DNA of 64,000 nucleotides, from NCBI GenBank assembly GCA_944322745.1, contig CALUPV010000003.1, forward strand, positions 1-64,000, given 5' to 3'. The DNA is from Candidatus Gastranaerophilales bacterium (GTDB taxonomy: Bacteria; Cyanobacteriota; Vampirovibrionia; Gastranaerophilales; Gastranaerophilaceae). The position numbers and the translations under genes are program-made. Numbering within the stretch: the first letter of the stretch is position 1; every line of letters begins with the position of its first letter. Positions 40,875 through 53,638 of this stretch are shown one piece after another. The notes beneath the pieces were generated by a model. The model was not told the origin of the DNA. It made no database searches and saw only the letters and a program-made list of their open reading frames with translations.

Positions 40875-41786
40875 ATGAACAATGAAGAATTTGTATTAAT
40901 ACCTGAAGAACTTGCAATAAAAAAACCCCCAAAAGAACTCTTGGAAATCATTAATAATAAAATTTTCAATGACAGAGTACTCTTTGAGCTGGAGTCTGAT
41001 TTTCATAATATAAAAGTCATAGAAAATGAAATAGGCAGATTTCTTCATTACAAAGATACATATCAAGCCGGTTTTATTGATACAAACTTTTATAAAGGTA
41101 ATCTTCCATATATCAATTATTTTTTAATTCCGTATTTAATGAATCCTAAAATTAAAAATATTCTTTTAATAGGCATGGGCTCAGGCAAAATAATAAACGA
41201 TTTTGAATTTTTATTTGAAGATTTAAAATCTATTGATGTTGTCGATTTAGAAGAAAATATCACAGATATTGCCAAAAATTATTTTGATTTTAAAGAATCA
41301 GAAAGATTTAATTTTATTTTGCAAGACGGAATTACTTATTTAAGAAACAATAAAAGAAAATATGACCTGATTGTTGTAGATGTTGCAAATAATGACGGCA
41401 TAGATTTAAGATTTTTAAGTGATGAATATTTCAACATTATAAAAAAGTCCTTAAAGAAAGGAGGAATATTTGTTTCAAATATGTGCGCAAGTCCTGACTT
41501 TAATAATAAAAAAAATAAATTTTTTACTGATTTCTTCCCTAAATACCAAAAATTCTTTGAAAATAATTTAATATTTAAAGGAGATTATTCAGACAAAATA
41601 TACTACAAATGTTTCTTCAATATAAATGAACGTGTAATAGATATAACTAATGTAATTATAATATCTTCAGATAAAAAATATAAAATTAATGAAGAAAAAA
41701 AGTTAATAGAAAAAATAAAAAAGCTCAATATTAATATAGAAAATTATTTAAAAGATTATTGTAATAATCTGATAGAAACAAAATAA
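40875..41786 (+). CDS. Spermidine synthase-like methyltransferase-fold protein
   Basis: The 303-residue protein has a short N-terminal beta region and a class I SAM/dcSAM-binding domain: ILLIGMGSGKIINDF, DVVDLEENI and the KYDLIVVDVAN segment, in the order of polyamine aminopropyltransferases (SpeE). The C-terminal part (about 245-303) is lysine rich and unlike SpeE. The first candidate codon, TTG at 40857, directly follows a TATAAT and is unlikely; ATG at 40875 is preferred. The substrate is unclear. Confidence 0.65.
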   Translation: MNNEEFVLIPEELAIKKPPKELLEIINNKIFNDRVLFELESDFHNIKVIENEIGRFLHYKDTYQAGFIDTNFYKGNLPYINYFLIPYLMNPKIKNILLIGMGSGKIINDFEFLFEDLKSIDVVDLEENITDIAKNYFDFKESERFNFILQDGITYLRNNKRKYDLIVVDVANNDGIDLRFLSDEYFNIIKKSLKKGGIFVSNMCASPDFNNKKNKFFTDFFPKYQKFFENNLIFKGDYSDKIYYKCFFNINERVIDITNVIIISSDKKYKINEEKKLIEKIKKLNINIENYLKDYCNNLIETK

Positions 41787-51428: not shown

Positions 51429-51713
51429 ATGCAAGAAACAAAAAAAGAACTATTAAAAATAACAGGTAATATAATAAAAAAGTATAGAGGAATTAAATCT
51501 ATATCATTACTATCTAATGAAATAGAATTGAGTAAATCTATATGGAGTGAAGTTGAAAAAGGAAACAAAGATATTCAACTAACAACATTATGGAGAATAT
51601 CTGAAGGATTAAATATAAAACCATCTGAATTAATAAAAGAAATAGAAAATATGTTAGGAAAAGATTTTTCTTTTTTAGAAAATAATAGTAATAGAAGTAA
51701 AAAACTAATATAA
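51429..51713 (+). CDS. XRE-family transcriptional regulator
   Basis: The 94-residue protein has an HTH_3/XRE domain (about 10-66): ITGNIIKKYRGIKSISLLSNEIELSKSIWSEVEKGNKDIQLTTLWRISEGLNIKPSEL. A short polar tail follows. It lies right after twin palindromic operators and thus probably represses itself. It is followed after 7 bp by a small gene of unknown function. Such small regulators occur in mobile elements and restriction or toxin modules, but no such partner is visible. Confidence 0.85.
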   Translation: MQETKKELLKITGNIIKKYRGIKSISLLSNEIELSKSIWSEVEKGNKDIQLTTLWRISEGLNIKPSELIKEIENMLGKDFSFLENNSNRSKKLI

Positions 51714-51720
51714 TATAAAA

Positions 51721-52020
51721 ATGATATTAAAAGAATTTTCAAAATACCTACAAGAAAATAAAGATAAAAATTCTGTTAATCTTTTAAATGAATGGATTAT
51801 AGAAAGATTAAAACGTCCATCGTTAGATAAAGTTGATAATATACTAAAAACAGAATTATATTTTGCTAAAAATAATAACGGAAAAACTTTAGTTATAGCA
51901 AAAAGCGAAACAGGAAGAACTTTAATTAATGCTTTATATAATTTTGCTTTGAGTTTTGAACAATATAAAATGGCAAAATTTTTACATGATAAAAAATCTA
52001 ATGATTTTAATAATAAATAA
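51721..52020 (+). CDS. Hypothetical protein downstream of XRE regulator
   Basis: This 99-residue protein is not one I recognise. It is highly charged and mostly helical, with an N-terminal amphipathic helix (ILKEFSKYLQENKDKN), a middle NNGKTLVIAKSETGRTLINALYNFAL with a possible beta turn, and a lysine/asparagine tail. It probably shares a transcript with the XRE gene (7 bp gap). No ribosome binding site is visible. Its role could be tied to the regulator, but nothing in the sequence shows a toxin or antitoxin fold. Confidence 0.55.
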   Translation: MILKEFSKYLQENKDKNSVNLLNEWIIERLKRPSLDKVDNILKTELYFAKNNNGKTLVIAKSETGRTLINALYNFALSFEQYKMAKFLHDKKSNDFNNK

Positions 52021-52085: not shown

Positions 52086-52132
52086 AAAGCATGAAAAACA
52101 CTAATAAAATAGCATGTTTTCATGCTTTTTTT
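52086..52132 (+). terminator. Terminator after the XRE operon
   Basis: AAAGCATGAAAA (52086-52097) can pair with TTTTCATGCTTT (52117-52128). Within this is a smaller hairpin AGCATG-TTTT-CATGCT (52111-52126) followed by seven T residues. It separates the XRE unit from the candidate origin. Confidence 0.85.
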
Positions 52133-52354
52133 GTATAAAAAATTAACATTAATTTCAATAAAGAATATGTATAAAACCTGTAGAAAACTATTATATAAAA
52201 TTGTTTATAACTTTAATTTAAATTAAAAAATTTTAAAAAAATAAAAAAAATATAATTTATTGAACAAAAAATATACATCTTTTAAAAAATTTTCTACAAG
52301 TTTTATACAAGGCTAAAAACTAATAGTTACAATAATTTATAACATTTTTATACA
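52132..52354. other. Candidate chromosomal replication origin (oriC)
   Basis: Six copies of TTTT[A/C]TACA occur here. Three are in one orientation (52132-52140, 52168-52176, 52179-52187) and three in the other (52290-52298, 52301-52309, 52346-52354). The inner pairs have a 2-nt spacer and form a 20-bp inverted repeat matching at 19 positions. Between them lie 102 bp with only seven G/C bases, a possible unwinding element. The 9-mer differs from the cyanobacterial DnaA box TTTTCCACA by one base in its C form and two in its A form. The region adjoins dnaN, the usual origin marker in cyanobacteria. Confidence 0.7.
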
Positions 52355-52484
52355 ATATATAAAAAAGCTTATTACTACTTTTATTTTATTATATATAATT
52401 AAAATAGATATTAATAAAAAAATAAAAACATATAAAAAGAAAAAAGCAAATTTAAAAAAAGTTTAGCGTTTTTTATTTTTCTTA

Positions 52485-52490
52485 TATAAT
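52485..52490 (+). promoter_or_regulatory. dnaN promoter -10
   Basis: TATAAT lies 32 bp before the dnaN start with a TATAGAGG ribosome binding site in between. The -35 (TTTAGC, 17-bp spacer) is weak. Confidence 0.5.
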
Positions 52491-52522: not shown

Positions 52523-53638
52523 ATGTTTTTTACAATTGATAAAGATTCTTTATTGAATAAATTAAAAATAGTAGAAAAAGTAACAGCTCAAAGGGGTAAT
52601 GTACAACCTGTATTAGCAAATGTATTGTTTGAAGCAGAAAATAATGTTCTTAATTTAAGTGCAACAGATTTAGAAATTTCAATAAAAGCAAAAACAACAG
52701 TTGCAGTAAAAAAGGAAGGTAAAATAACGCTTCCTGCAAAAAAATTACTTGAAATTGCTGCAAAGTTACCTGATAAACCAGTAGAATTTTCATTAAATGA
52801 AGATACAAATGTTGTAAATATAACTTGCGGAAATTCAAAATTTGAAATTATAGGTATTTCAGCTATGGAATTTCCTAGACTTGAAGATGAATTAACTGAT
52901 GGTACTGAAATTGAAATTGAATTAGAAACATTTTTAAAATCAATTAAAAATACAGTATATGCTGCGGCAAATTATGAAAATAGAAATGTAATATCAGGTG
53001 TTTTTTGTTTAATAAAAGGTAATAAGCTCGAAATGGCTGCTACTGACGGTAACAGATTAACAAGGATTATAGAAAATATAAAAAATAAAGATGATAAATC
53101 TGCAAAAATAGTTATTCCTTCAAAAACTTTAAATGAATTTGTAAGAGTTTGTTCTTTTATTTCTGAAGAAAAAGTTATTTTAATTGTTGATAGATCTAGA
53201 TTAACACTAAAAACAATGAGTTTTGCTATTAATTCAAGATTGATTGATGGTGAATATCCTCCATATGAACAATTAATTCCAAAATCAACTGCAAATAATT
53301 CAATAATAGCAAGAGATGATTTAATTTCTGCTTTAGACAGAGTATCAACAATGGTATATGACAGAACAAGTATTGTTAAATTCACTTTTAACAATAATAA
53401 ATTAGTATTAAAGGCTGAAACACCAAATTCAGGTACATCAGAAGATATTATAGATTGTGAATATTCAGGTGATGAACTTGCAATAGCTTTTAATTATAAA
53501 TATGTTTTGGATTCAGTTAAAACAATGGATTCAAAAAATGTGCAAGTAGGACTAAATGGAAGTTTATCCGCAACAGTTTTCAAACCTGAAAGTGAAGAAG
53601 ATTATATTTGTTTGATAATGCCTATACAAATAAGATAA
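52523..53638 (+). CDS. dnaN: DNA polymerase III beta subunit (sliding clamp)
   Basis: The clamp is 371 residues, three similar domains of about 120 residues, starting MFFTIDKDSLLNKLKIVEKVTAQRG, with IDGEYPPYEQLIPK in the middle and the C-terminal YICLIMPIQIR, the usual hydrophobic-pocket end. It lies right beside the candidate origin and heads rightward, co-directional with a fork leaving it. It is followed by thrB and pgk. Confidence 0.97.
   Translation: MFFTIDKDSLLNKLKIVEKVTAQRGNVQPVLANVLFEAENNVLNLSATDLEISIKAKTTVAVKKEGKITLPAKKLLEIAAKLPDKPVEFSLNEDTNVVNITCGNSKFEIIGISAMEFPRLEDELTDGTEIEIELETFLKSIKNTVYAAANYENRNVISGVFCLIKGNKLEMAATDGNRLTRIIENIKNKDDKSAKIVIPSKTLNEFVRVCSFISEEKVILIVDRSRLTLKTMSFAINSRLIDGEYPPYEQLIPKSTANNSIIARDDLISALDRVSTMVYDRTSIVKFTFNNNKLVLKAETPNSGTSEDIIDCEYSGDELAIAFNYKYVLDSVKTMDSKNVQVGLNGSLSATVFKPESEEDYICLIMPIQIR

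Follow-up and report, generated by a model that had tools for sequence, protein, structure and literature searches.

A mirrored DnaA-box array beside dnaN as the probable chromosomal origin of a Gastranaerophilales bacterium

Layout of the locus

The window analysed here comprises the first 64,000 nucleotides of a contig from a Gastranaerophilales bacterium. It carries dnaN, for the DNA polymerase III beta subunit (TIGR00663), on the plus strand at 52523-53638, and dnaA (TIGR00362) on the minus strand at 551-1963, about 50 kb away. Upstream of dnaN stand six boxes of the form TTTT[A/C]TACA, starting at 52132, 52168 and 52179 on the minus strand and at 52290, 52301 and 52346 on the plus strand. 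The outermost left box is an exact match to the word TTTTATACA (52132-52140). The left pair consists of TTTTATACA (52168-52176) and TTTTCTACA (52179-52187, anchor L), both of which also fit the pair pattern of the genus. To the right, exact matches to TTTTCTACA (52290-52298) and TTTTATACA (52301-52309) form a second pair, and a terminal TTTTATACA (52346-52354, anchor T), which recurs in the arrays of the genus, adjoins a trio-like element. Between the half-arrays lies an A+T core of 102 bp with 7 G/C (52188-52289), a proposed loop spacer whose length varies in helical steps. The two inner pairs make up a 20-bp inverted repeat that matches at 19 of 20 positions, and the ACA ends of all six boxes face away from the core. 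The original prediction had given the same account of the sites, the repeat, the core and the distance to dnaA.

Three weaker box-like words can be read by eye within the core: TTATAAACA on the minus strand (52202-52210), and TATTGAACA (52258-52266) and AAATATACA (52269-52277) on the plus strand, the latter two scoring below 3 in the array scan. Minus-strand words of this kind, comparable with that at 52202, occur about 22 bp to the right of anchor L in 10 of 29 genus arrays. Six boxes is a low count once the weaker words are included.

The clustering of the boxes is well above chance, which is one of the criteria of the DoriC type. When the 502 bp around the array (13% G+C) were dinucleotide-shuffled 20,000 times, no box appeared in 18,050, one in 1,854, two in 92 and three in 4, and more than three in none, against the six observed. 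The single 9-mer is not enriched genome-wide, with 265 matches in 2.04 Mb compared with 287 for the reversed word, so that the signal lies in the clustering; the enrichment proposed for the 9-mer thus holds at the array but not across the genome.

A terminator-like hairpin followed by a T run (52111-52132, plus strand; 6-bp stem with 3 G-C pairs; 0 expected in shuffles) immediately adjoins the outermost left box, at the proposed left boundary of the origin. Similar sequence is seen in most genus rows of the alignment, and the hairpin may keep transcription from upstream out of the origin. On the other side, a TATAAT at 52485-52490 (plus strand) is a possible -10 element of dnaN; it is conserved in the genus alignment and was not picked by the scan that gave the hairpin. 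Ahead of the array, 51721-52020 encodes a 99-aa protein without an NCBIfam match, and in many genus rows a similar reading frame has its 3' end beside the array. Further upstream, 51429-51713 encodes a small HTH protein with weak matches.

Conservation, skew and probable identity as an origin

The paired form of the box, TGTAKAAAANNTGTAGAAAA, has 40 matches in 34 of the 41 genomes of the genus, and its reversed control has none. In 39 of the 40 cases the match lies no more than 450 bp upstream of dnaN; the remaining one belongs to a displaced array. The array is therefore found where it had been expected in close relatives, in a conserved place adjoining an indicator gene, which is a further DoriC-type criterion. 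The pair has no match in seven of the 41 genomes, of which two (G018 and G016) have near-matching arrays.

With dnaN located in 38 of the 41 genomes, 36 arrays could be examined: 33 upstream of dnaN and three displaced (G010, G016 and G018). Outside this set are the three genomes in which dnaN was not matched, G007, whose upstream DNA measures 45 bp, and G005, whose 1,200 bp ahead of dnaN contain no array. A script detected the left pair, the terminal box and the trio together in 34 of the 36 arrays; the remaining two, one with a mismatch in the pair (G016) and one with a degenerate trio (G025), were measured by hand. A second, distant DnaN homologue with 25-31% identity is encoded in four genomes (G002:C9, G059:C3, G078:C22 and G083:C5), and a small HTH-like gene, recognised by eye, lies alongside the displaced array of G010.

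Outside the genus, at least four TT[AT]TNNACA words, a threshold uncalibrated against shuffles, lie within 350 bp upstream of dnaN in 45 of 60 regions drawn from the family, order and class at one to three per genus, with fewer in the other 15. The left group takes the form of a palindromic box pair, commonly TGTAGAAAACTCATGAGTTTTCTACA, in other genera of the family (for example L139 and L142), 19 genomes having it at a fixed 116-118 bp from the terminal box, and G060 and G078 have a palindromic box pair about 5 kb from dnaN. In one genome (G136, L156) the neighbouring genes dnaA and dnaN diverge from the box cluster between them, and in another (G163, L150) dnaA lies close upstream of dnaN; from these gene orders, the arrangement of dnaA, dnaN and boxes varies within the family. 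An origin at dnaA was considered for the window and rejected, with one exact box only (at 405) within 1 kb of the gene.

Cumulative skew, computed on single contigs, gives a divided answer to the expectation of a minimum at the array. The contig of the window itself, 197,621 bp long, has its GC-skew minimum at 41,163, some 11 kb away from the array. The minimum falls close by in two relatives. The 240,000-bp sequence of G018 has its GC minimum at 183,914, 262 bp from the trio (183,652), and its keto minimum at 183,739, 87 bp from the trio. Here a stretch of about 6 kb separates the array from dnaN (189,806, 6.15 kb off). Positions with skew values no more than 60 counts above the minimum range over 181,874-186,899, an interval that does not include dnaN. 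On the 258-kb contig of G014 the minimum (131,058) lies about 0.7 kb from the left pair (131,774), with three other stretches between 120.7 and 143.8 kb within 60 counts of it and the keto minimum 29 kb away.

The place of the array, directly upstream of dnaN in most members of the genus, would also suit a DnaA-regulated operator of dnaN or a DnaA-titrating site that is no origin. That is very improbable: the arrays stay intact, with box, spacer and trio, away from dnaN in G018, G010 and G016, the skew minimum of G018 lies beside the array and not beside dnaN, and an operator needs no trio. With its conservation in the genus and the skew minimum close to it in two relatives, the array beside dnaN is, as the comparison of genomes suggests, very probably the chromosomal oriC of this Gastranaerophilales bacterium, the identity originally put forward for it.

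Probable opening site and spacing of the half-arrays

The terminal box is followed by a 14-bp spacer (52355-52368, plus strand) and by the trio-like element TTATTACTACTTTTATT (52369-52386, plus strand), which comprises six [CT]T[AT] triplets that read 3'-NAN-5' on the other strand and is conserved in the genus. Of 34 genus arrays, 33 have a spacer of 12-14 bp and one has a spacer of 17 bp. In the basal unwinding system (BUS) of Bacillus subtilis the triplets lie on the side faced by the ACA end of the terminal box. The published BUS search set a spacer limit of 16 bp, with a peak at 10-13 bp, and a minimum of three triplets, and reported candidates in 1,755 of 2,070 origins (PMC8287927). With 14 bp and six triplets, the sequence TTATTACTACTTTTATT after the terminal box lies within these limits and fits a putative DnaA-box/spacer/DnaA-trio module.

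By a trio pattern that was defined post hoc from the sequence and is present in 3 of 20,000 shuffles, the box at 52346 has a trio-like flank, unlike all 13 other exact boxes in the window. The pattern TTTTCTACA-N11-14-TTAYTAYTACTAYTA occurs once each in 41 of 287 family genomes, and its reversed control does not occur; the terminal box of the window is TTTTATACA, so that the window is not among the 41. Where the position of dnaN is available (29 of the 41), the terminal box lies 108-262 bp upstream of it in 27 genomes, and 539 and 1,270 bp upstream in one genome each.

Nearest-neighbour stability places the weakest DNA outside the core. The least stable stretches of 30 and 50 bp start at 52376-52390 and delimit a predicted unwinding region at 52376-52436, and the weakest stretches of 100 bp start at 52328-52338, spanning the terminal box and the trio. 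The original prediction had DnaA opening the A+T core itself, which is 93% A+T, has boxes on both sides and, with a mean stability of -0.960, stands only slightly above the right flank at -0.925. Against this, the boxes point away from the core, none of the flanks of the six boxes within it has a trio-like element (the one such flank is that of 52346, on the dnaN side), the length of the core varies by tens of base pairs, and the weakest short stretches lie to the right of the array. Opening of the core is thus improbable, and this part of the prediction is not supported: the layout suggests that strand opening probably takes place on the dnaN side, immediately beyond the boxes, rather than in mid-cluster.

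The distance from the left pair to the terminal box takes a restricted set of values. Across the 34 script-detected arrays only 145-146, 155-156, 166-169, 177-178 and 188 bp are found, where for genomes with several left pairs the longest distance was used (188 bp in G009, otherwise 177 bp), and the two arrays measured by hand give 168 bp (G025) and 178 bp (G016). Among the 29 arrays that pass a stricter trio rule, periodicity at 10.8 bp reaches an R of 0.88, and the 11 distinct distances are more periodic than each of 20,000 random sets of 11 values from the same range. A control distance, from the terminal box to dnaN, is partly periodic too, with an R of 0.60 against 0.88. On a quick dnaN tree, in which 6 of 31 inner branches are open, the distance class changes at least ten times, so that the steps do not go back to one inheritance. 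Helical steps were also sought in other genera, and the 19 genomes matching both anchor patterns, all with 116-118 bp between them, added no steps.

Steps of this size could also arise without any loop, by gain and loss of 11-bp box units. The boxes inside each half-array are indeed 11 bp apart, and extra boxes are present in the arrays of G009 and G010/G008. In the genus alignment, however, most of the variation in length sits in the middle, where boxes are few; this favours phasing over the copying of units, and one genome (G026) differs by 10 bp from its near relatives G032 and G029. Copying of box units is rather unlikely as the source of the steps. In B. subtilis, a distal box that had been moved is described as working with helical phasing, in both orientations and over a long range, from which the authors infer a loop, and reversal of the proximal boxes as inactivating the origin (PMC6669920). 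The A+T core of the present array likewise seems to be a loop spacer, with the half-arrays in register around the helix.

Taken together, the preferred reading, to which we assign a probability of about 0.87, is an oriC with DnaA on both half-arrays, melting on the trio side towards dnaN, and a loop across the core. The boxes, their conservation, the trio-like element at a near-constant distance, the quantised spacing and, in two relatives, a skew minimum close to the array are seen directly, and it is from these that we infer DnaA binding, melting at the trio and the loop. DnaA would bind the two outward-pointing half-arrays, pass from the terminal plus-strand box at 52346 over the 14-bp spacer onto one strand of the triplets at 52369-52386, and, towards dnaN, melt the weak stretch at about 52376-52436. 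Assistance would come from the left half-array looping back over the flexible A+T core, in which case the length of the core must hold both halves on matching faces of the helix.

Recognition residue, box word and known origins

In domain IV of the window's DnaA, the alignment reads RKHTT where the structure 1j1v of E. coli DnaA has RDHTT, placing Lys at the position of E. coli Asp433. Asp433 is counted among the base-specific residues conserved in Firmicutes and E. coli (PMC7561715). Lys stands at this position in all eight genus DnaAs read, namely that of the window and seven more. Among 60 DnaAs from outside the genus, partly assigned by hand, there are 45 with Lys, 7 with Asn, 3 with Arg, 3 with Thr, 1 with Gln and 1 that is ambiguous, and the outgroup has Asp in all 24 genomes sampled of the 116 drawn (G249 and G278 by eye). 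A change of H439 to Tyr was rejected as specific to the lineage: Tyr occupies this position in many DnaAs of the outgroup too, and in G009 and G010 the residue is His.

The residue at 433 varies together with position 6 of the box, in raw counts per genome group that ignore kinship and have few evolutionary events behind them. C occupies position 6 in 3 of 295 words from the 36 genus arrays, where the eight DnaAs read all have Lys, in 9 of 286 from the other Lys genomes with at least four boxes (n=38), in 16 of 36 from the Asn genomes with at least four boxes (n=6), and in 55 of 59 from outgroup Asp genomes (n=8), to which 6 of 6 in G249 can be added. According to a review, E. coli DnaA forms hydrogen bonds with positions 2-4 and 7-9 of the box and, when position 6 is T, has no more than a van der Waals contact there (PMC6727663). 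Given this contact and the few evolutionary events, the relation between residue 433 and position 6 is taken as covariation only. Words of the TTTTGCACA type are common in the genera with Asn at 433 (g18, g19, g22, g24 and g27; L152-L154, L157, L158, L160 and L163).

Initiator protein and binding word thus appear, from their covariation, to have changed together. The cyanobacterial box TTTTCCACA, on which membership in that class of origins would turn, is absent from the scored words of the array, whose boxes are of the form TTTT[A/C]TACA. As the original prediction suggested, TTTT[A/C]TACA is the putative lineage-specific DnaA box, with the T at position 6 that goes with Lys in place of the C seen with Asp.

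The same observations bear on whether the mirror sites might belong to a different regulator, for instance the HTH protein of 51429-51713, whose best match (E 6.3e-5) is weak and below the curated cut-off. This is extremely improbable, as the nonamers are one or two bases off the cyanobacterial DnaA box, are arrayed upstream of dnaN across the order, and vary in sequence along with the recognition residue of DnaA. A bolder form of the DnaA reading holds that the two opposed half-arrays must loop, that their spacer evolves by whole helical turns only, and that the box code was rewritten at 433 (Asp to Lys) and position 6 (C to T), with a sub-group that has Asn and TTTTGCACA; this is offered tentatively, its chances falling somewhat short of even.

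In the literature searched, no described origin from Gastranaerophilales or Melainabacteria was found, and work outside that scope may exist; the part of PMC7111523 that names Melainabacteria does so only within a list. The locus offers a DnaA box and an origin to search with in this host-associated sister group of the cyanobacteria. Its natural spacing variants bear on origin looping, and the covariation of residue and base makes the recognition code of DnaA testable with purified domains.

The candidate origin shares traits with several known systems. With E. coli oriC it shares a place that is not beside dnaA, boxes in two arms and models with a loop; it differs in its box and in having six trio-like triplets, where three are reported for E. 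coli. With the oxygenic cyanobacteria it shares an oriC beside dnaN and, as described for Cyanothece, Anabaena and S. elongatus, boxes of the TTTTNNACA type (PMC4674748). The BUS-type opening site that is probable here has a counterpart in S. elongatus, a cyanobacterium whose DnaA opened its own BUS in vitro (PMC8287927). The oxygenic cyanobacteria have TTTTCCACA and Asp433, whereas TTTT[C/A]TACA and Lys are found here. The B. subtilis BUS (incC) has the same succession of a terminal DnaA box, a short spacer and 3'-NAN-5' triplets (PMC8287927), and B. subtilis oriC has distal boxes with helical phasing (PMC6669920), to which the natural spacing variation only corresponds here. In contrast with B. 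subtilis, the box is TTTT[C/A]TACA rather than TTATCCACA, the second box group is inverted, and the origin lies beside dnaN only, with dnaA 50 kb away.
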